A stretch of DNA of 53,410 bases from Clostridium sp. (lineage in GTDB: Bacteria; Bacteroidota; Bacteroidia; Bacteroidales; Muribaculaceae): contig JAMPBQ010000009.1 in NCBI GenBank assembly GCA_023666615.1, positions 1 to 53,410 of the forward strand. The letters run 5' to 3'. How positions within the stretch are numbered: position 1 is the first letter of the stretch; each line of letters begins with the position of its first letter. A model generated the notes under the pieces. That model saw only the letters and a list, made by a program, of their open reading frames with translations. It searched no databases and was not told the origin of the DNA. Positions 18,788 to 38,649 of the stretch are shown here, piece after piece. The position numbers were made by a program, and so were the translations under genes.

Positions 18788-19927
18788 TTAATAGTCAAAG
18801 ACAAAGGTGGCGAGAAGCGGATAATGGTCGCTGGCGTCAATGCCGCACCGCTTTATCGCCCACGGACGCATATTGCCGCGATACAGGATATGGTCAATGC
18901 GGAAGAAAAGATAATTGGCGTTGTAGGTGATGGCCGGGCCGAATCCCGCCTCGGCGTATGCCTGCCGCATCTTGCTCACCTTCTCCAATGACGAAAGCGC
19001 ATAGCAGCCCACAGGGTCGTTAAAGTCGCCGCATACTATTGCGTTGGCTCCCCCATATTTCGCCAAATACTTCTCCAAATACTCCACTTGCTTTTGTCTA
19101 TCCACGGCCGCGGCCTTGATTTTTGGGAAAACATCAACGCGCATCTCGTATATCTCCTTGCGCCCAACGCTGTCAAGCTTCACCAGGTCTTGGTAATGGC
19201 CTTTGTCGGCGTCGGTAAGCGAGTAAGACCTCAAGCGCACACTGAATACATTGACCACCCTGTCGTCGATACGCAAACGCCAGCCCGACATATCGCCGCT
19301 GGGAAATGAATCCTTGGGGAAATTGATGGCTATTGGCTTTACTTCAAATTTGGAAAATATGGCGAATTCCTTTCCCTGCGTCAGCACGTAAGGATAGACT
19401 ATGTGCAGGGAATCAAGCTGTCGCTGCGATATTTTGTTCTCAGGGTTAGGCGCCAGATAGTCAGCCTCCTGTATGCACACCACATCCGGCCTCTTGCGCA
19501 GGATGTATTCCATCTGCAGGCTTTCCTTTCCTCCCCTCTCCCTGAAATCCAAAAATTTATAGGCATTGTAAGTCATTATCGTAAACGACCGGGCCTTCTC
19601 CTCTTCGCCCATGCGGAAATTTGGGATGTTCAGCGGGCAAAAATCGCGGATAGGGCCCAGGCATGCCAGCATAGCGACGCCGGCAATCCACGCTGTGCGT
19701 CTCCACCATATCAGGTCAATGGCAAATACCAGCACGCAGCCGGCAAACCACCATCCAAAGGTCATGGCCACAATCGACGAAGCAGGCCAAGAGCTCGGAG
19801 CTATGTCGTGGGCATAGGCCGAGGCCAAAAGGCCAAGGCACACGCCAATGTTCACAATGAGCACCACGGCGTTGACAAAAACGCGCAGAGCCCTTAGCCA
19901 CTTGTTTTCCTCCTCTCTACCCTTCAT
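18788..19927 (-). CDS. Membrane-anchored EEP-family hydrolase
   Basis: The protein has 379 residues. Three N-terminal hydrophobic segments (about 15-37, 50-72, 78-92) precede an endonuclease/exonuclease/phosphatase domain from about 115. Family motifs are VVCIQEADYL (metal-binding Glu), IVCGDFNDPVG (Asp/Asn pair) and DASDHYPLLATF near the C terminus (catalytic His with the Asp before it). Members cleave phosphodiester or phosphate-ester bonds in DNA, lipids or inositol phosphates; the substrate cannot be told. The start overlaps the stop of the upstream rhomboid gene by four bases, so the two are probably co-translated. Confidence 0.88.
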   Translation of the reverse strand: MKGREEENKWLRALRVFVNAVVLIVNIGVCLGLLASAYAHDIAPSSWPASSIVAMTFGWWFAGCVLVFAIDLIWWRRTAWIAGVAMLACLGPIRDFCPLNIPNFRMGEEEKARSFTIMTYNAYKFLDFRERGGKESLQMEYILRKRPDVVCIQEADYLAPNPENKISQRQLDSLHIVYPYVLTQGKEFAIFSKFEVKPIAINFPKDSFPSGDMSGWRLRIDDRVVNVFSVRLRSYSLTDADKGHYQDLVKLDSVGRKEIYEMRVDVFPKIKAAAVDRQKQVEYLEKYLAKYGGANAIVCGDFNDPVGCYALSSLEKVSKMRQAYAEAGFGPAITYNANYLFFRIDHILYRGNMRPWAIKRCGIDASDHYPLLATFVFDY

Positions 19928-20718
19928 TTGAGACGCTGCGATAATTCAAACAATTGCTGGCGCTCGGCCGCCGTGAGGGAATCATAGCCTGAGCGGCTCA
20001 CCTTTTCGAGAAGAATATCAAGCCTGGCCACAGCCTGAGTCTTTGTCATGCCGGCGCCAAAGTTAGGATTTGCCTTATATCGAGATTTCTGCGGCAAAGA
20101 AAAAGATATCTTTCCGCCCTTCTCAATCAATCCCCACAAATAACCCGCGCAAAGGCCTGCGCCGTGGGCGATGCTCATATAGGCGTCCGGCTCCAAGATT
20201 ATGAAAAGCACAATCGCAGCCAATGCCACCCACAAAACCTTTACTCTGCCAAAAAGCAACATGTTAACCTCAATACTCGGCGTCAGCGCCAAGCACGCCC
20301 CCACAACACCTATCACCGCGCACGACGCTCCTATCATCGGAGCCCCGCCGTTTGAATGCACCAAATTTGAAATCAAGAACGCCGCGGCGCCGGCAAGACC
20401 TGAGATTACATACACGGCCAAAAGCTTGCCCCTGTCCAAACGCATCTCCAAAAGCGTGCCGAAAAGCATCAGCCAAAGCATGTTCACGAGCAGATGTAAG
20501 AAATCGTAATGCGAAAACATATACGTCGCCACCGTCCAAATCCTTTCCGGCAGCATAAATATCGATGAAGGCATTCCAAAAAGCCCAATCCACCAATTGG
20601 CGCTGCCGGCCGGAATAAAAGCCAACCCGGCTGCAATCACAATCCAAACAATGAAATTGACTGTAATAAGCCGACGAGGCATCGTGCTCCAAAGCCATGT
20701 GTTCCAATATTCTCGCAT
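19924..20718 (-). CDS. Rhomboid family protein with GASC active-site motif
   Basis: The protein has 264 residues with six TM segments. The putative nucleophile is Ser132 in IGASCAVIG and the base is His185 in AHGAGLCAG, with HLLVNM (about 75-80) supplying the oxyanion-hole Asn. Rhomboids usually have GxSG; here the glycine after the serine is Cys133, so activity is uncertain although Ser and His remain. A cytoplasmic C-terminal tail of about 65 residues ends in a Gln/Leu-rich helix. It is one of two rhomboid genes in tandem, followed with overlap by the EEP-family gene. Confidence 0.88.
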   Translation of the reverse strand: MREYWNTWLWSTMPRRLITVNFIVWIVIAAGLAFIPAGSANWWIGLFGMPSSIFMLPERIWTVATYMFSHYDFLHLLVNMLWLMLFGTLLEMRLDRGKLLAVYVISGLAGAAAFLISNLVHSNGGAPMIGASCAVIGVVGACLALTPSIEVNMLLFGRVKVLWVALAAIVLFIILEPDAYMSIAHGAGLCAGYLWGLIEKGGKISFSLPQKSRYKANPNFGAGMTKTQAVARLDILLEKVSRSGYDSLTAAERQQLFELSQRLK

Positions 20719-20748
20719 ACCAACAATCCTAAGCCAAAACTAATGCCC

Positions 20749-20797
20749 TACACTCAATACTTTATACTCTATACTTAATACTTTACACTTTACACAA
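20749..20797. repeat. Heptamer tandem array between the rhomboid genes
   Basis: Seven consecutive 7-bp units occur in perfect register: TACACTC, AATACTT, TATACTC, TATACTT, AATACTT, TACACTT, TACACAA. They fill most of the 84-bp gap between the two rhomboid genes. Confidence 0.85.
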
Positions 20798-20802
20798 CGC
20801 GT

Positions 20803-21537
20803 TCAAAAACGCTTTGTGTAAGCATGCTTCCAATAAAGGATGATGAAGAATCCGAAGAGCATGCCGCCGAGGTGGCAAAAATGGGCCACATTCGACGCCG
20901 TGCCGGAAACGCCAAGCAAAAGCTCCAGCACGCCGTAGCCAATCACAAGCCACTTAGCCTTTATAGGCATCGGCGGGATAAGAAGCATCAGCTCGCGGTT
21001 GGGCCAAAGCATGCCAAAAGCCAGCAATATGCCATAGATCGCTCCCGACGCGCCCACCGTGCCGCCGTTCACAAGGCTGTTGATATCGCCAAGATATGGA
21101 TCAGCGAAAGTGCGCCCTGTCTTAAGCAATATAGCTCCCTGATCGATAATCTCTTGCATCTCATAATCAGAGAACATCGCATAATACTTATGCAGCATAA
21201 TGGCGAATACGCCCTCCTGCACCAGCGCGGCGCCTATTCCCACTGATATATAATAGAATAAGAACCGCTTTGACCCGAAGGCCCATTCTATCGACGGGCC
21301 AAACATATAGAGGGCGAACATATTGAAAAACAAGTGGGCAAACCCTCCATGGATAAACATGTAGGTGATCAGCTGCGCCGGATTGAACAGCGGCGAAGAG
21401 AAGTAATGCAGCGCGCAATATTGAGAAATCACATTCTCCTTGCCGGCTATCGCCATAACCGCAAAAATCAGCACATTGATTATCAACAGGTTTTTCGTAA
21501 CCGGCGGAATATGTCCGAAATGAGTAGACCCTATCAT
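20803..21537 (-). CDS. Rhomboid family intramembrane serine protease
   Basis: The protein has 244 residues and six or more TM segments. It has the complete catalytic set: Ser164 in VGASGAIYG, and His222 in AHFCHLGGMLFG, with FAHLFFNMFALYMFG providing the H/N pair of TM2. Rhomboids cut substrates inside the membrane; the substrate is unknown. A loop of about 35 residues between TM segments (about 125-160) is longer than usual. It is the first gene of a leftward cluster with a second rhomboid and an EEP-family protein, and is divergent from the restriction-like locus. Confidence 0.94.
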   Translation of the reverse strand: MIGSTHFGHIPPVTKNLLIINVLIFAVMAIAGKENVISQYCALHYFSSPLFNPAQLITYMFIHGGFAHLFFNMFALYMFGPSIEWAFGSKRFLFYYISVGIGAALVQEGVFAIMLHKYYAMFSDYEMQEIIDQGAILLKTGRTFADPYLGDINSLVNGGTVGASGAIYGILLAFGMLWPNRELMLLIPPMPIKAKWLVIGYGVLELLLGVSGTASNVAHFCHLGGMLFGFFIILYWKHAYTKRF

Positions 21538-21689: not shown

Positions 21690-21697
21690 TATCTTTG
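21690..21697 (+). promoter_or_regulatory. Candidate -7 element for the restriction-like locus
   Basis: TATCTTTG followed by CA matches the Bacteroidetes -7 element, 65 bp upstream of the ATG at 21762. No matching -33 element was found. Confidence 0.45.
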
Positions 21698-21761: not shown

Positions 21762-22742
21762 ATGGATTTAAGCTTTAACCTACATACCCACATTGACCTC
21801 ACTCCCGAGCTGCTGAGCATCCTCCTAAAAGATCGCACCACTGATAAAAACATCTTTTGGGCCACGGACAATTATTCGCATCTCGGAGAAGGCTATCAGT
21901 TCTCTGACGAGATAAGGGTTGAGGCCATAAGCGGAACGAACAACAATGTCATTGTCCCTCGCGCCCTAAAGCCGCGCCAGCTTCAGCAAGAGCGCGCCCG
22001 CAAAATGGCCGAGGTGTTCACGCCCTCTTGGGTTTGCAACAACATGAACAACCTTGTTGACAACAGTTGGTTCGGCCGCGAAGATGTGTTCAGCTCTGAA
22101 ATAAAGGGCCCAGACATGAAGCGCTCTTGGGCGCGCACAGAAAGCAAAATTGAATTTCCTGAAGGGAAGACCTGGCATGACTATGTGACTGAGAACCGCC
22201 TTGAAATCACTTGCGGCGAAGCCCCGTTCCTGGTCAGCCGCTACGACACAGTCTCCGGCGAAGCCTTGCCGGTAAAGGACCGCATAGGCCTGCTTGACCG
22301 CAAGCTGCGCATTGTAAGCGAAAACACGGATTCAGCCGCCGACTGGATAAATGAGGCCAAAGCCGCTTTGCGCTCCACCTACGGCTACGAATGGCAAGGC
22401 GACAACATAGTGATAGCCCGCCAGAACATGCTTTTCACCATGCTTGAGCATTATGAGGATGTGTTCGGGGAAAAGCTGCCCGATGACACAATCACCGAAT
22501 GCGCGGAAATCGTTTCGTGGAACATCTGGCAGATGGATGGACTGAAAATGGTGATCCCCTGCTCATGCCACGATGAGGAGATCAGCGCGTCATTGTTTGG
22601 CGGCAGCGTTCAGACCAAGCCATGCCCGGGCTGCAAGAAAAAAAATTATTGGCTGCACAACGGCGTGTACGCCAAAATAATGGACTGGGAGGCCGGGCAT
22701 CCCATCCAATTCGTATCCATAGTGAAAAAAGCAAAAAAATAA
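21762..22742 (+). CDS. Methyltransferase-like protein of an RM-like locus
   Basis: The protein has 326 residues. AEVFTPSWVCNNMNNLVD (83-100) is the entry motif of many N6-adenine methyltransferases. LEITCGEAPFL (147-157) reads as SAM-binding motif I, followed by STYGYEWQGDNIVIARQNM (205-223), the usual next strand and helix. The catalytic (D/N)PP(Y/F) motif is not visible anywhere. Where it would be expected there is instead a possible metal site: C267-x-C269 and C288-x2-C291. It could be an inactive or accessory methyltransferase, or a diverged active one. The next gene starts 8 bp after this stop, so they are one operon. I believe similar pairs occur in other Bacteroidetes, labelled as restriction subunit M, but I could not check. 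Confidence 0.75.
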   Translation: MDLSFNLHTHIDLTPELLSILLKDRTTDKNIFWATDNYSHLGEGYQFSDEIRVEAISGTNNNVIVPRALKPRQLQQERARKMAEVFTPSWVCNNMNNLVDNSWFGREDVFSSEIKGPDMKRSWARTESKIEFPEGKTWHDYVTENRLEITCGEAPFLVSRYDTVSGEALPVKDRIGLLDRKLRIVSENTDSAADWINEAKAALRSTYGYEWQGDNIVIARQNMLFTMLEHYEDVFGEKLPDDTITECAEIVSWNIWQMDGLKMVIPCSCHDEEISASLFGGSVQTKPCPGCKKKNYWLHNGVYAKIMDWEAGHPIQFVSIVKKAKK

Positions 22743-22750
22743 GGGCTGCA

Positions 22751-25700
22751 ATGGGCAAAGCGCGCGGCATAAGAATCGACGATCGAATCCTTGACACTGT
22801 CATTACCGGCAGGGTCGATCCGCATATCTATGCCTTTACTACGCAGACTGTGCCCAATTATCTGAAAGTTGGCGACACGTACCGACCAATAAGGGAGCGG
22901 CTGGATGAATGGCGCGTTGCATTCCCCGATTTGAAATACTTGTACAGCCATAGCGCGCGGATTGACGACGACACTATTTTCAGAGATTATTCCGTGCATA
23001 AATTCCTTGAAGCGGACAAATCGAGGCATAGGCTCCAGAAGGAAGACATGCCGGAATTGCAATATTATTCCAATGAATTTTTTAAGGACGCCAACGCCGG
23101 CGACATCGATGAAGCCATAGCCGACATACATAAATGCGCCAGGGAAGGAGGCGGCAAATATTCATTCTATTCTTCCGAACATCTGCCTAAAATCCTTGAA
23201 TACAAAAGGGACCAAAACTATTCTCCCCGCGAGAACCAGGAGCAAGCGATAGAGAATTTCGCCAAGGCCCTGAAGCTTGGGCGCAAAAACTTGCTGATGT
23301 TCGCTGTAATGAGATTCGGCAAAACCTTCACGGCCATGTGCTGCGCACAAAGGATGAAGGCAAAGAAGGTGCTTGTGCTCTCCGCAAAGGTGGACGTTAA
23401 CGACGAATGGAGAAAGACTGTTCAATCCCACGTCCGCTTCGATGGCTACATCTTTGCCGACAAGCGAAATTTGCTGGAGAGTGAATCCTTTTTGCGGGAT
23501 TCCTTGGCAAAGAAAAAGAAAGTAGTCCTGTTCCTTTCTCTGCAGGATTTGCAGGGCGAGGACATGAAGGAGGTCCACAGGGAAGTGTTTGGCTTGGATT
23601 GGGACTTGGCGATAGTGGATGAGACGCATTTTGGCGCCAGGGCTGAGCATTACGGCAAGGTGCTCCAAAACAAAAAAAGCGCCTCCGCTGAGCTGAAGCG
23701 CCAACTGGAAGACGTCGATGTCCTCGATAGCCTTGACAATGCGATAAAGGAGCTGCATGCGAGAGTGACGCTTCACCTGTCTGTCACCCCGTACCGAATA
23801 TTGATGGGAGATGAATTTGAGAAGGAGGACATAATAGCCTTTTTCCAATTCTCTGACATAGCGGACGCTCAGCGGAAATGGATAGAACAGCATAAATTCG
23901 ACGAGAAAACACCGGAATGGAAGAACCCATATTTTGGATTCCCCAAGATGATACGCTTTGCCTTCAATCCGAACCAATCATCCCTTGAAAGAATAGCCCG
24001 GCTAAAGGCGGAGGGGGCGACAGCGTCGTTTTCCGAGCTCTTTCGGCCAAAATCCCTAACGCCGGCGAACGATGGCTATTGCCGGTTCGCGCACCAAGAC
24101 GTTGTGCTGGATTTTCTGAAGGTGATAGACGGCGTGAAAGAAGACGCGAACGTTCTCGGATTCCTTGACAACGAAAGGATAAAAAGCGGCAAGCTCTGCC
24201 GGCACATGGTTTTTGCGCTGCCCTACTGCGCATCCTGCGACGCCATGGAGGCTCTCATCAAACAAAACGCCGAAGAATTCAAGAACCTGTCGGAATATGA
24301 GATAATCAACATCTCGGGGGTAAAGCGAGACAAAAGATTCAACAACACTCCAAGCATCAAGCGGCATATAGAAGACTGCGAGGCCAAAGGCATTAAGACA
24401 ATCACCCTTACAGTGAATCGCATGCTCACCGGCAACACTGTGCCGCAGTGGGATACGATGCTCTACCTTAAGGCGACATCATCGCCCGAGGAATATGACC
24501 AAGCCATATTCCGGCTCCAGAATCCATACATTGACGCTTATGTGGACAAGGATGGAACCTATGCGAAAATTGACATGAAGCCGCAGACAATTCTTGTGGA
24601 CTTCGACCCCGAGAGAGTGTTCCGCCTGCAAGAATTCAAAAGCCAAATCTATAACGTAAATACCGACAACAACGGAAATTCAAGACTTCGCGCCCGCATT
24701 GAAAAAGAGCTGGAAATCTCGCCAATCATAGTGCTTGACCACAATAAGCTCAGGGAAGTGACCGCCAACAATGTGATGGACGCCGTGCGCCGATATTCCG
24801 AGACGCGCAGCGTGATTGACGAAGCCGCGGATTTGCCCATCGACATGTCTCTCCTCAAGAACGCCGACCTGCTGCGGGCGGTGCTGGCCCTCAACGCCCT
24901 GAAATCAAAGAAAGGGATTATGGCGCCGGCCAACAGCAAGCCTGATGACGATGGCGACGACGTGAACCCTACTGCCCAAGGGGAATCTTCTGGCGCAAAT
25001 GCCGGCCTGCCGGCTGAAGGCGCTCAGCCGCAGCGCAATGACGACGACACTTTGGCAAAAAAATTCGCTTCATATTTTGCCCTGATTCTTTTCTTCGCAT
25101 TCTTGACAGACGACAATGTGACAAGCCTTGAGGAAATCATAGGCGTCCTGGATGCTTCAGACGACAATAAAAGGATTTGCCTCCACCTTGAGCTTTCCCC
25201 GGATATGCTGAAATACATACAATCCCACTGCAATGGCTTTATCCTCAGCAAGTTGGACGATCGCATAAAAAAGACGAACGAACTAAATCAGAACGACGGC
25301 CGCAATCCATTGGAGCGGGCCAGGCTTGCGCTTACGAAATTTGGGCGCATGTCCGAATCTGAAATTGTGACTCCGGCAAAGGTGGCGGATGATATGGTGG
25401 GGTTATTGCCGGAGGACGTGTTCGAGCATGGCCCGGCTCTTGACATAGCCTCCAAGCAAGGCGAGTTTGCCATAGCCCTGCTCAAGCGGTATGGCAATTC
25501 CGCCGCCGACAAAATCTATTCCGTCTGCACTTCAAAATTGGCATATGAGTTTACGCGAAAAATCTATAAGCTCCTGTCCCTGCCAATCGACCACATATTC
25601 GATTCATTCACAAGCTACGACCTCATAAAGAGAAACAAAGACAAAAAATTCATAGTACCCCAAGCAATACAAGACATGAATTTTTCAACAATAATCGGAA

Positions 25701-26695
25701 ATCCTCCATACCAAGAGAATCTTGAAGCCGGCAGAAGCTTGGCGAAACAGCTATTCCCTGCTTTCATAGAATTTGGCATAGACCAAACCCCATGCTGGTT
25801 CTCACTGATTACCCCTGCCCGATGGTTTACCGCCGACGCACAAGACAATTCATTTCCAAGATTGCGTGAATACATACGCAAACACAATAATTTCTCCACC
25901 ATCATCACAGATAATGGCAAATGCTTGTTCCCTGATACAGAATTAAGCATGGTCAATTATTTTCTGTGGACAAATGGATACAGAGGGAAAGTGAAATTTG
26001 TTGAAAATCATAACGCAAGGAATGACTTTTTTGACCGCCCCTTATTTGAGAAAGGATTAGACATTATCATACCCCAAAATAAAATCATATCTATCCTAAA
26101 AAAAATTAAGACAAAAAAATTCGTGTCCCTAAACACCATCACCACCGGGCGCGATGCCTTTGGAATCGTTGGCAAAGATTTCGTAAAACGCTCACAATCA
26201 AAAACCTTTGAGGACGCTATTGCCGTACAATGCGCGTATGAGCAAATACGCTATATTAAACGCGAAGAAGTGAAGAAGGGAACGGATATATTGGATAAAT
26301 ACAAAGTATTCACTTCTAAAGGCAATGGAGGTGCAGGACTCTTGACTGACGGGAAACCAGTAACCATTATCGGGAAATCCTATATCGGCGAGCCAGGAAT
26401 GGCATGCACAGACTCCCTCATTCCCTTTGGGCGGTTCACAACTATAATTGAGGCTCAAAACCTTCAGAAATACATGTCGACTAAGTTTTTGCGCTTCTGT
26501 GTAGGAATATTGAAGGTTTCACAGAATCTTTACCAAAACGTGTATTCATTTGTGCCGCTGCAGGATTTTACGGCGGGGAGTGATATTGACTGGACCGTGA
26601 GCGTTGAGGATATTGACAGGCAGCTCTATGGCAAATACGGGCTTGACGAAAAAGAGATAGCCTTCATTGAGGCAAAAATCAAGCCTATGCCATAG
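22751..26695 (+). CDS. GIY-YIG / SF2 helicase / Eco57I-like methyltransferase fusion
   Basis: I chose the ATG at 22751 (1314 residues); an earlier ATG at 22622 would overlap the previous gene by 121 bp. Residues about 24-130 look like a GIY-YIG nuclease of the T5orf172/MUG113 kind (HIYAF, YLKVGDT, IRERLDEW, NEFF). Residues about 155-600 form an SF2 helicase: MRFGKT (187-192) as Walker A, VDETHFGAR (289-297) as the DEAH-like box, SVTP (344-347) and QAIFRLQNPY (584-593) as motif VI. An acidic, Pro/Gly-rich linker at about 724-766 follows. Residues about 860-1300 are an Eco57I-type N6-adenine methyltransferase: motif I ALDIASKQGEF (from 896) and catalytic NPPY (984-987), then a probable target-recognition part. 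Cleavage, translocation and modification activities appear joined in one chain. Confidence 0.85.
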   Translation: MGKARGIRIDDRILDTVITGRVDPHIYAFTTQTVPNYLKVGDTYRPIRERLDEWRVAFPDLKYLYSHSARIDDDTIFRDYSVHKFLEADKSRHRLQKEDMPELQYYSNEFFKDANAGDIDEAIADIHKCAREGGGKYSFYSSEHLPKILEYKRDQNYSPRENQEQAIENFAKALKLGRKNLLMFAVMRFGKTFTAMCCAQRMKAKKVLVLSAKVDVNDEWRKTVQSHVRFDGYIFADKRNLLESESFLRDSLAKKKKVVLFLSLQDLQGEDMKEVHREVFGLDWDLAIVDETHFGARAEHYGKVLQNKKSASAELKRQLEDVDVLDSLDNAIKELHARVTLHLSVTPYRILMGDEFEKEDIIAFFQFSDIADAQRKWIEQHKFDEKTPEWKNPYFGFPKMIRFAFNPNQSSLERIARLKAEGATASFSELFRPKSLTPANDGYCRFAHQDVVLDFLKVIDGVKEDANVLGFLDNERIKSGKLCRHMVFALPYCASCDAMEALIKQNAEEFKNLSEYEIINISGVKRDKRFNNTPSIKRHIEDCEAKGIKTITLTVNRMLTGNTVPQWDTMLYLKATSSPEEYDQAIFRLQNPYIDAYVDKDGTYAKIDMKPQTILVDFDPERVFRLQEFKSQIYNVNTDNNGNSRLRARIEKELEISPIIVLDHNKLREVTANNVMDAVRRYSETRSVIDEAADLPIDMSLLKNADLLRAVLALNALKSKKGIMAPANSKPDDDGDDVNPTAQGESSGANAGLPAEGAQPQRNDDDTLAKKFASYFALILFFAFLTDDNVTSLEEIIGVLDASDDNKRICLHLELSPDMLKYIQSHCNGFILSKLDDRIKKTNELNQNDGRNPLERARLALTKFGRMSESEIVTPAKVADDMVGLLPEDVFEHGPALDIASKQGEFAIALLKRYGNSAADKIYSVCTSKLAYEFTRKIYKLLSLPIDHIFDSFTSYDLIKRNKDKKFIVPQAIQDMNFSTIIGNPPYQENLEAGRSLAKQLFPAFIEFGIDQTPCWFSLITPARWFTADAQDNSFPRLREYIRKHNNFSTIITDNGKCLFPDTELSMVNYFLWTNGYRGKVKFVENHNARNDFFDRPLFEKGLDIIIPQNKIISILKKIKTKKFVSLNTITTGRDAFGIVGKDFVKRSQSKTFEDAIAVQCAYEQIRYIKREEVKKGTDILDKYKVFTSKGNGGAGLLTDGKPVTIIGKSYIGEPGMACTDSLIPFGRFTTIIEAQNLQKYMSTKFLRFCVGILKVSQNLYQNVYSFVPLQDFTAGSDIDWTVSVEDIDRQLYGKYGLDEKEIAFIEAKIKPMP

Positions 26696-32924: not shown

Positions 32925-35165
32925 ATGGATAGCGAGAAGAAAAAGACTTCCGCGCTTGGGGCGCTGATGAAATACGGGCTACCGCTGGTGGTGACGGTGG
33001 GATTGTGCTGGCTAATGTTCCGCAACATCAACTTTGATGAGATGATGCGGATCATACGCAGCCAATGCAATTTCATTTGGATAGCCTTGGCGTTGGCCCT
33101 AAGCGTGTTTTCCCATGTGATCAGGGCTTTCCGCTGGGACATCCAGCTCAAGGCCTTAGGCGTGCATGCTCCCAAGCATGTGTTGATATACAGCATCTTC
33201 GGCACCTACACAGTCAACCTTGTCTTTCCTCGCCTGGGCGAGGTGTGGCGCACGGGCTATGTGGCCCAGCGGCAAAAAGCACCCTTCTCCACAATCTTCG
33301 GATCAATGGTGGGCGACCGCCTGGCCGATACTGTGACTGTGGCGCTCCTCCTCCTTCTCACTTTCCTGCTTGCGTCAAATCAGCTGATAAGCTATCTGTC
33401 GCAGAACGGCGACTTATATGAAAAATGCGTGTCGGCGGCAACGTCGCCCTGGCTGTGGCTAGCTATAGCCGCGGCAATCGCAGCCGCATGGTGGTTCCTC
33501 ACCCGCAAGGCGGAATCCGGCTCATTGGTGGGCAAGCTGCAGGGATTCGTAAAGGGCCTGTGGCAGGGATTTTCCGTTTTGGCCACGATGAAGGGAAAGG
33601 GCCTCTGGCTATTCCTCACCATCTGTCTATGGGGATGCTACTTCCTGCAATTCTATGTGGCCATGTACGCGTTTCCATTCACGTCCGACGCCGTGGCGGA
33701 GCACGGCGTGATTTGCCCCTTGGTGGCATGGGTATTCTCAAGCATAGCCATGGGAGTGCCAAGCAATGGGGGCATAGGCCCGTGGCAATGGGCCGTAATC
33801 TTCGGCCTTGGGCTGTACGGCGTGGGGCAGACCGACGCGGCGGCGTTCGCCAACCTTGTGCTCGGCACGCAGACGCTCCTGCTGATCGCGCTTGGCATAA
33901 TCACATTCATAGGCATAATGCTCGACAAGAAAAAAACGAAAAAACTAAATATCAAAGCAATGCATAAAGTAATAATAATTGGCTGCGGAGGCGTAGGCAC
34001 GGTTGTGGCGCACAAGTGCGCCCAGAATCCCGATGTGTTTGGCGAAATCGTCATAGCCTCGCGCAACAAGGCCAAGTGCGACGCCGTGGCCAAGGCCATC
34101 GGCAGCCCCAACATCACCACGGACCAGGTTGACGCCGACAGCGTGCCGCAGCTCGTGGAGCTCTTCCGCAAGCACAAGCCAGAGCTTGTGATCAATGTGG
34201 CACTCCCCTATCAAGACCTTACGATCATGGACGCTTGCCTTGAGTGCGGCGTGAACTATCTTGATACGGCCAACTATGAGCCCAAGGACGTGGCGCACTT
34301 TGAATATTCCTGGCAATGGGCCTACCGCAAGCGCTTTGAAGAGGCCGGGCTAACGGCTATCCTCGGCTGCGGCTTTGACCCGGGCGTTTCGGGCGTATTC
34401 ACAGCCTACGCCGCCAAGCATTACTTCAAGGAAATGGAGTACCTTGACATTGTGGACTGCAATGCGGGAAACCACGGAAAGGCCTTCGCCACGAACTTCA
34501 ATCCGGAAATCAACATACGCGAAATCACCCAAAACGGACGCTACTATCAGGATGGGAAATGGGTGACAACCGGACCGCTTGAAATCCACGCGGAGCTGAC
34601 ATATCCCAACATCGGCCCTCGCGATTCGTACCTTCTGTACCACGAAGAGCTTGAGAGCCTTGTGCAGAACTATCCCACAATCAAGAGAGCCCGCTTTTGG
34701 ATGACTTTCGGCCAAGAATACCTAACGCACCTGAGGGTGATTCAGGACATAGGCATGGCGCGCATTGATGAAATAGACTATAACGGCCAAAAGATTGTGC
34801 CTCTGCAATTCCTGAAGGCCGTGCTGCCCAACCCGCAAGACCTTGGGGCCAACTACCACGGCGAAACTTCAATAGGCTGCCGCATTTCCGGCATAGGGAA
34901 GGACGGGAAGCCGATGACGTACTACATCTACAACAACTGTTCGCATGAGGAGGCGTACAAGGAGACCGGCATGCAGGCCGTAAGCTATACTACAGGCGTA
35001 CCGGCAATGACCGGCGCGATGATGTTCCTAACCGGAAAATGGCGCAAGCCCGGCGTGCATAACGTTGAGGAATTTGACCCTGATCCATTCTTGGCGGAAT
35101 TGGCTAAGCAAGGATTGCCCTGGCATGAAATCATCAATGAGCCGCTTGAGGTGGACAAGATTTAA
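32925..35165 (+). CDS. Flippase-like membrane domain fused to carboxynorspermidine synthase
   Basis: A single 746-residue frame contains what look like two complete proteins. Residues 1-345 form the LPG_synthase_TM (UPF0104) membrane domain with about eight TM segments and the PSNGGIGPW motif; relatives include lipid-flippase-like proteins. From Met346 (ATG at 33960) a 401-residue part begins MHKVIIIGCGGVGTVVA, a Rossmann motif followed by the saccharopine-dehydrogenase-like carboxynorspermidine synthase fold. That enzyme reductively condenses aspartate semialdehyde with putrescine or diaminopropane, and is the spermidine branch used by many gut Bacteroidetes. The junction is A-rich and frame-sensitive (see 33929-33967). 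It may be a true fusion or two genes joined by an indel. The second half begins at an ATG where it could also be translated alone. Confidence 0.85.
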   Translation: MDSEKKKTSALGALMKYGLPLVVTVGLCWLMFRNINFDEMMRIIRSQCNFIWIALALALSVFSHVIRAFRWDIQLKALGVHAPKHVLIYSIFGTYTVNLVFPRLGEVWRTGYVAQRQKAPFSTIFGSMVGDRLADTVTVALLLLLTFLLASNQLISYLSQNGDLYEKCVSAATSPWLWLAIAAAIAAAWWFLTRKAESGSLVGKLQGFVKGLWQGFSVLATMKGKGLWLFLTICLWGCYFLQFYVAMYAFPFTSDAVAEHGVICPLVAWVFSSIAMGVPSNGGIGPWQWAVIFGLGLYGVGQTDAAAFANLVLGTQTLLLIALGIITFIGIMLDKKKTKKLNIKAMHKVIIIGCGGVGTVVAHKCAQNPDVFGEIVIASRNKAKCDAVAKAIGSPNITTDQVDADSVPQLVELFRKHKPELVINVALPYQDLTIMDACLECGVNYLDTANYEPKDVAHFEYSWQWAYRKRFEEAGLTAILGCGFDPGVSGVFTAYAAKHYFKEMEYLDIVDCNAGNHGKAFATNFNPEINIREITQNGRYYQDGKWVTTGPLEIHAELTYPNIGPRDSYLLYHEELESLVQNYPTIKRARFWMTFGQEYLTHLRVIQDIGMARIDEIDYNGQKIVPLQFLKAVLPNPQDLGANYHGETSIGCRISGIGKDGKPMTYYIYNNCSHEEAYKETGMQAVSYTTGVPAMTGAMMFLTGKWRKPGVHNVEEFDPDPFLAELAKQGLPWHEIINEPLEVDKI
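33929..33967 (+). other. Homopolymer junction of the fused gene
   Basis: Runs of seven A (33930-33936) and six A (33939-33944) lie just before the ATG at 33960. One extra base in the A run would end the first half at TAA 33965-33967, overlapping the ATG as ATGCATAA. One base fewer would end it at TAA 33946-33948. The present frame has no stop. This can be read as a recent indel joining two overlapping genes, or as an assembly error. Confidence 0.75.
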
Positions 35166-37965: not shown

Positions 37966-38176
37966 GAATCAGATAGATTATGTGACATGCGTTATTGGCG
38001 CGCTGGCTCTTATGACGGGGAAATCATGTTCATGGATATATCATAGACTTAACGCCGCGGGGTTGATTAAAGATTATTTGGCAGCGGCATATGATGTGCT
38101 CCACACCTTCAGCCTTGAATATGTGGCAGAAGAAGTCATTAGCCTCATGAAAAAGAGAGGATACGCTCTATGTTAG
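37958..38176 (+). CDS. DUF3791 family protein (first copy)
   Basis: The protein has 72 residues from the ATG at 37958. It reads MTKNQIDYVTCVIGALALM, then SWIYHRLNAAGLIKDYLAAAYDVLHT, then VAEEVISLMKKRGYALC, the pattern of the small helical DUF3791 proteins found beside DUF3990 genes. They are thought to be the antitoxin or partner of the DUF3990 product; that is inference. The stop overlaps the DUF3990 start by seven bases (ATGTTAG), so translation is coupled. Confidence 0.82.
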   Translation: MTKNQIDYVTCVIGALALMTGKSCSWIYHRLNAAGLIKDYLAAAYDVLHTFSLEYVAEEVISLMKKRGYALC

Positions 38177-38649
38177 TATATCACACTTCAGACCAATGTT
38201 TTGAGACTCCGGATGTAGAACATTCACGCAACGCTCTTGACTTTGGAAAAGGATTCTATGCGACTAGGCTTAAGGAACAGGCTGTTAGTTACGCAGACAG
38301 ATTTTTAAAGGTAGGCGTCAATGCCTATCTCCATGTTTTTGAGTTTACGCCTGACCCCAATTTGAGGGTGAAAACCTTTGATTCGTACAATGAGGAATGG
38401 CTTGACTTTGTATGCAACTGTCGGAAAGGAAATGATGCGTATAAACAATATGATCTCATAGAAGGAGGCGTGGCCAACGATAAAGTTTACCGGACAGTAG
38501 ACCTTTACATGGCCGGGATATACAACAAAGAACAGGCATTGGATAAGCTTATGTATGAGATGCCCAACCACCAGTTGTGGTTTATCACACAGGAGGCGAT
38601 AGACAAATGCCTGAAATTCATTGAACACAATGTCATTGAACATGGATAA
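38170..38649 (+). CDS. DUF3990 family protein, ADP-ribosyltransferase-like
   Basis: The protein has 159 residues. MLVYHTSD, then LDFGKGFYATRLKEQAVSYADRF (in pieces, about 24-46), then ELWFITQEAIDKCLKFIE-like text near the end matches the DUF3990 pattern (YHGS ... DFGkGFYlT ... A..wA ... F.T..al..L.fi). The layout resembles ADP-ribosyltransferase folds (first-strand His5, GFYAT), so it is a candidate toxin that modifies a cellular target. The biochemical role is not established to my knowledge. It lies between two DUF3791 genes with overlaps on both sides (7 and 8 nt), so the three are one translationally coupled cassette. Confidence 0.85.
   Translation: MLVYHTSDQCFETPDVEHSRNALDFGKGFYATRLKEQAVSYADRFLKVGVNAYLHVFEFTPDPNLRVKTFDSYNEEWLDFVCNCRKGNDAYKQYDLIEGGVANDKVYRTVDLYMAGIYNKEQALDKLMYEMPNHQLWFITQEAIDKCLKFIEHNVIEHG

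Follow-up and report, generated by a model that had tools for sequence, protein, structure and literature searches.

Restriction enzymes of Type ISP, such as LlaGI and LlaBIII, carry a nuclease, a translocase, a gamma-class methyltransferase and a recognition domain in one chain, the nuclease being of the Mrr-like PD-(D/E/Q)XK kind (excerpts of PMC3874165). Their translocation is ATP-driven, and for cleavage they need two head-to-head sites. Type IIG enzymes join a cleavage domain to a gamma-class methyltransferase in a single chain, and the GIY-YIG nucleases Eco29kI, Cfr42I and Hpy188I have been described as Type II enzymes (excerpts of PMC4081073). Methyltransferases that form one enzyme from two polypeptides occur naturally among the cytosine-5 (C5) enzymes, as in M.AquI and M.EcoHK31I (excerpts of PMC3404938); the second chain of these bears motifs IX and/or X. 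In CglI and NgoAVII, according to excerpted literature, methyltransferase, endonuclease and ATPase are encoded by three separate genes. The subject of this report is a two-gene locus on contig JAMPBQ010000009.1 of Clostridium sp., of which a stretch of 53,410 nucleotides, referred to as the window, was analysed. With moderate confidence the locus is read as a two-gene ATP-dependent restriction-modification system with a split N6-adenine methyltransferase, a superfamily 2 (SF2) motor, a GIY-YIG nuclease and an exchangeable half bearing the NPPY motif.

Among known kinds the closest is Type ISP, and the locus may well work like one. The large protein keeps its domain order within one chain: nuclease, translocase, gamma methyltransferase, then recognition domain. 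The initial annotation had placed the joining of helicase and methyltransferase outside the classical systems, a view that fails on LlaGI and LlaBIII, where it is already known (excerpts of PMC3874165). The locus was not filed under Type ISP because its nuclease and subunit make-up differ: the N-terminus is of the GIY-YIG type, not Mrr-like PD-(D/E/Q)XK, and the large protein is not a self-contained single polypeptide, a separate small gene with the S-adenosylmethionine (SAM)-binding half being present at 30/30 near-full-length large loci. A further difference is that methyltransferase halves have been exchanged between systems of the window's type. The window proteins have no significant sequence match to a solved chain, and sequence searches of solved structures with the locus proteins gave nothing significant (E ≤ 1). 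Like the Type IIG enzymes the large protein joins a cleavage domain to a gamma-class methyltransferase, but it contains SF2 motifs that are invariant in 22 aligned large proteins, whereas Type IIG enzymes have, to our knowledge, no ATP-driven motor. In Type III systems Mod and Res are separate proteins with PD-(D/E)XK in Res, while in the window the motor and the NPPY half share one chain and the nuclease is GIY-YIG-type. Eco29kI, Cfr42I and Hpy188I belong to the same nuclease class, but we know of no motor in them, and the nuclease type of CglI and NgoAVII differs from the window's. The likeness to M.AquI and M.EcoHK31I lies in a methyltransferase made from two polypeptides; in contrast to these, the window enzyme appears to be of the gamma adenine type, its split falls between motifs III and IV, and it is coupled to a motor and a nuclease.

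PADLOC models PDLC03626 (REase_MTase_IIG) and PDLC03390 (MTase_II) match both proteins over near full length, so that the family is already catalogued under generic names, with labels that omit the SF2 motor, the GIY-YIG domain and the split methyltransferase. As to the earlier suggestion of an undescribed system, both proteins are catalogued by sequence ('Type IIG', 'Type II methyltransferase'). Within the open PMC literature (subscription journals and REBASE lying outside its scope) no tested activity was seen, and the matches listed included neither a GIY-YIG nuclease, SF2 motor and methyltransferase in this layout nor a split gamma adenine methyltransferase. If the system works as read, GIY-YIG would be added to the nuclease types with which ATP-driven restriction enzymes cut, and the current gene labels 'restriction endonuclease subunit M' and 'Eco57I restriction-modification methylase domain-containing protein' would be explained.

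The locus consists of two open reading frames (ORFs) on the + strand with 8 bp between them, in agreement with the sizes and coordinates first annotated. The large gene was taken from the ATG at 22751; its mechanical ORF starts further upstream, at 22622, and overlaps the small gene. The features of the locus are as follows, m6A standing for N6-methyladenine and pLDDT for the predicted local distance difference test score.

21690..21697, + strand: TATCTTTG, ahead of the small gene, a possible -7 promoter element of the Bacteroidetes type, called on the consensus TAnnTTTG
21762..22742, + strand: small gene, encoding 326 aa that lack NPPY and are interpreted as that half of a gamma-class m6A methyltransferase which binds SAM (PADLOC PDLC03390, 386.7 bits)
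22008..22025, + strand: motif X, AEVFTP, small-protein residues 83-88, invariant in a 12-row alignment
22200..22229, + strand: motif I, LEITCGEAPF, small-protein residues 147-156
22380..22433, + strand: motif II region, YGYEWQGDN..AR, small-protein residues 207-224, named by analogy with the methyltransferase motif order
22521..22541, + strand: motif III-like NIWQMDG, small-protein residues 254-260, with [WF]QMDG in 120/126 small proteins
22560..22634, + strand: four cysteines of the small protein (C267, C269, C288, C291), possible zinc site, retained in part of the family only
22751..26695, + strand: large gene, 1314 aa, comprising GIY-YIG-type nuclease, SF2 ATPase, linker, helical segment, ros and NPPY/target-recognition half (PADLOC PDLC03626)
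22820..23089, + strand: GIY-YIG-type nuclease domain with Y27, K39, G41, R50, D79, H83 and E109, from homologue alignment and Pfam
23219..24820, + strand: SF2 helicase-like ATPase (ResIII), from Pfam and alignment
24923..25039, + strand: disordered linker, acidic as first annotated, modelled with pLDDT <50 at model residues 26-64 (P0001 725-763)
25031..25339, + strand: helical segment, which together with the downstream part aligns with HsdM-type proteins
25361..25627, + strand: ros, a second SAM-binding-like half (VTP ... DIASKQGEF)
25673..26692, + strand: catalytic NPPY half and target-recognition region, together forming the exchangeable module
25700..25711, + strand: NPPY motif IV, large-protein residues 984-987, past which relatives diverge

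The small protein had no Pfam match and contains motifs X, I, II and III. Within motif I, E148, C151, G152, E153 and P155 are invariant in the 12-row alignment, and the [CA]G is retained in 126/126 small proteins. The initial annotation took this protein for a second methyltransferase, which was rejected as first choice since [NDS]PP[YFW] occurs in none of the small proteins shorter than 400 aa. The small protein and the NPPY half of the large protein are better read as two halves of one gamma-class m6A methyltransferase, on account of natural fusions of the halves, a confident fusion model, phage stretches showing these halves only and consistent gene pairing; for the window itself this is a reading. 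The model of the fusion relative L114, built on 106 rows of which 3 were fusions, gave a complete two-half methyltransferase fold with strands 1-3 in the small part and 4-7 in the NPPY part (the strand numbering is our own), and the gamma-class order X-I-II-III-IV followed by the recognition domain. All 39 Foldseek matches of this model at E ≤ 0.001 were methyltransferases or restriction enzymes containing one, with low query-normalised TM-scores of 0.15-0.46.

Small and NPPY halves are present in Tenacibaculum phage PTm1 (L013 4528-6960), the nuclease-helicase not being seen in that stretch, and possibly serve there to protect the phage DNA. Fusobacterium phage FNU4 (L014 6001-7881) has a small-NPPY fusion whose ORF begins past motif X with similarity reaching further upstream, possibly a truncated gene.

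The large protein was matched by PDLC03626 over residues 13-1313 with 1074.8 bits and by the Pfam families ResIII (3.4e-12) and Eco57I methylase (3.6e-11). Its SF2 motifs MRFGK (187-191), DExH (290-293), SxTP (344-347) and QxxFRxQ (584-590) are invariant across the alignment of 22 large proteins, as is NPPY. The first annotation of an SF2 motor and an NPPY methyltransferase in one chain is supported. On homologue evidence the N-terminus is of the GIY-YIG-type nuclease family. In the window it matches no Pfam model, T5orf172 and MUG113 included; among the 43 homologous N-termini (window included, E ≤ 0.1) T5orf172 matched 31 (best 3.4e-8) and MUG113 19 (best 1.3e-7), and both are presumably members of the GIY-YIG clan. 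Y27, K39, G41, D79, H83 and E109 are invariant in 43/43 of these N-termini and R50 is found in at least 90%, and the GIY and YIG elements and the catalytic Arg and Glu of the superfamily are all recognisable. These matches and signature residues support the annotation of the nuclease as GIY-YIG rather than PD-(D/E)XK. The nearest solved chain to the domain was T4 endonuclease II, with a non-significant E of 0.18. The N-terminal nuclease model matched 101 ORFs, including 97/103 helicase ORFs; the other six appear split or truncated.

The family is widespread: when a single genome of each species was scanned with the small protein as the seed, at least 580 relatives came up. The best 80 of these were retained, so that the class counts that follow are not unbiased. 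The combination of a small gene with GIY-helicase-NPPY in one chain recurs in 75/107 loci, so that the pair was indeed found in other genomes, and 69/75 of the intergenic gaps measure -112 to +25 nt. In 3/107 loci small and NPPY are fused and the GIY-helicase is a protein apart; another 3/107 have three ORFs, and L045 among these is possibly a fused gene broken by a frameshift. The helicase ORF was open at the contig end with NPPY not seen in 6/107, a helicase piece without NPPY occurred in 2/107, and phage PTm1, with small and NPPY halves, makes up 1/107. In a further layout, class E (L128 4185-9112, L129 4888-9569, L198 632-5715), a short small protein accompanies a ros-NPPY protein and a separate GIY-helicase protein; the small proteins of L128 and L129 have a canonical EPACGTGNF. 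As a counter-check, a large-protein profile was searched against 297 genomes of the window's family and gave 57 rows, 30 of them covering at least 1200 model positions. For 29/30 of these near-full-length large genes the small gene lies on the same contig (28 at no more than 200 nt, one at 1.1 kb), and the contig of the thirtieth starts inside a small gene whose tail lies immediately 5' of the large one, giving 30/30 paired; this figure covers near-full-length rows only, the other 27 being contig pieces and class E proteins. A chance gene pair was rejected on the near full-length PADLOC matches to both proteins, the recurrent layout and this pairing.

The GIY-helicase parts form two lineages in the tree, classes A and B, with the window in class A; because the classes were defined by match to the window's nuclease model, the clean split is partly by construction. 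The comparison that took in the spare NPPY halves described below used 73 full-length systems, and trees were calculated for 69 of these (31 A, 38 B), with L016, L017, L020 and L049 excluded manually; for the helicase part and the NPPY half quick trees were built, which gave long-branch warnings. Mean identity upstream of NPPY was 26.9% between lineages (1178 pairs) against 56.9% and 62.5% within, and that of the small proteins 56.8% between lineages against 59.1% and 59.3% within, the pairs of systems not being independent. The small-protein tree requires 12 changes between lineages, at least 10 of them forced by well-supported branches, and in it the small protein of the window, a class A system, groups with one from class B (100/99); the NPPY tree requires 13 changes, at least 9 forced. 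As sequence comparisons, these results show that both methyltransferase halves moved repeatedly between two nuclease-helicase lineages. Among 38 pairs with upstream identity of at least 85%, the NPPY halves are less than 45% identical in 27, in all of which the small proteins are at least 75% identical, and in the examples printed the divergence begins directly after NPPYQ.

Two loci (L078 11790-15949, from Prevotella corporis DSM 18810, and L102 11060-15213) each contain two spare NPPY/recognition halves, one partial, which adjoin a gene that by eye is tyrosine recombinase-like, and inverted repeats span the NPPY motif. The expressed NPPY half of L102 is 82% identical to an inverted spare in L078, an arrangement likely to represent switchable specificity. 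A constant SAM-binding subunit with exchangeable catalytic and recognition halves, of which these loci hold spare copies, would suggest a natural route to new DNA specificity.

Sequence or model shows domain order, intact motifs, gene pairing, natural fusions, module exchange and, for the fusion relative, a complete two-half methyltransferase fold. The likeness to a restriction-modification system that was first annotated is supported. The small protein would contribute the SAM-binding half (motifs X to III) of an N6-adenine methyltransferase and the end of the large protein, pairing with it in preference to ros, the NPPY catalytic and target-recognition half, so that both halves together would mark a specific sequence in host DNA. 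An unmarked site would switch on the SF2 motor as a translocase and the N-terminal GIY-YIG nuclease would then cut in the manner of Type ISP, presumably in defence against phages. Specificity would change through exchange of the NPPY half, with which the small subunit would remain compatible. Two observations complicate this account. Ros and NPPY of the window's large protein also model as a complete methyltransferase in cis with the order X-I-II-III-IV, and since both pairings fold, the predicted models favour neither cis nor trans. Only the small gene was seen in 17/107 loci, 12 viral and 5 in genome contigs, three of the latter (L059, L084, L086) still carrying a GIY-YIG fragment. The twelve viral loci (L111, L115, L116, L118, L119, L120, L122-L127) have no NPPY-type ORF above 150 aa, and in the whole records of 9 of them a match to the NPPY half was absent in 8 and partial in one.

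The cis model fits a large protein that is self-sufficient as in Type ISP, in which case the small protein would have an accessory role as allosteric SAM sensor, as stabiliser or as helper for the second strand. This is possible but unlikely, as the small gene accompanies every near-full-length large gene in the family genomes, and the first Gly of motif I in ros is replaced by Lys in 72/73 cases, as it is in the window. Moreover, phage PTm1 and the three fusions accompanied by a separate GIY-helicase protein combine small and NPPY halves with no ros on that chain, and in five pairs between classes A and B the NPPY halves are 61-66% alike and ros only 18-30% identical. That both pairings model as complete folds, and that two X-I halves are present per single NPPY half in 81 aligned systems (two with spare NPPY halves) and in class E, would also suit a switch in which one NPPY/recognition half alternates between the small protein, when methylating, and ros, when restricting and signalling to motor and nuclease. 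The choice between marking and cutting would then depend on which half completes the one active site, and a phage that brings only the small protein would bias the system towards marking; such a switch is quite improbable, given the spare NPPY halves in two loci and no direct sign of competition between small protein and ros. The function has been deduced from domains, and the viral loci with the small protein alone show that parts may serve other ends. An activity other than restriction of unmethylated DNA (cutting that depends on modification, abortive defence, or regulation through methylation) is nevertheless very improbable, considering the joint occurrence of nuclease, motor, methyltransferase and variable recognition module, the patchy spread within the family and the defence-like neighbours of some relatives.

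Matches were found in 37/297 genomes of the window's family, some by fragments only, and in 10/395 of its phylum, including the window's own and three weak ones. Record titles among the best 80 of at least 580 name Bacteroidetes, Clostridia, Bacilli, Treponema, Helicobacteraceae and Gastranaerophilales, and viral contigs contributed 27 loci, phage records 7 and plasmids 20 (including Bifidobacterium and Enterococcus plasmids), a range too wide for the Bacteroidetes subtype first considered.

Some relatives have defence-like neighbours; in the window none of ten ORFs scanned with Pfam was defence-like. When ten downstream neighbours of ten hand-picked relatives were compared with PADLOC, with no background control, four gave strong matches (RmrA, IetS, PDC-S01, SIR2), two partial (pAgo-type, mad2) and four none. 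The direct neighbours of the window locus, named by eye, are rhomboid-like and parE-like genes. No rhomboid match beside parE was present in 20 short loci (the window's own included) or 9 longer congener regions, and hence no empty site was read. The rhomboid-like genes (19924-21537) encode two adjacent membrane proteins and are divergent from the small gene. Elsewhere in the window, Pfam identified an odd fusion in a 746-aa ORF (32925-35165), joining a lysylphosphatidylglycerol synthase-type membrane region to saccharopine dehydrogenase domains, and a DUF3990 protein at 38170-38649.
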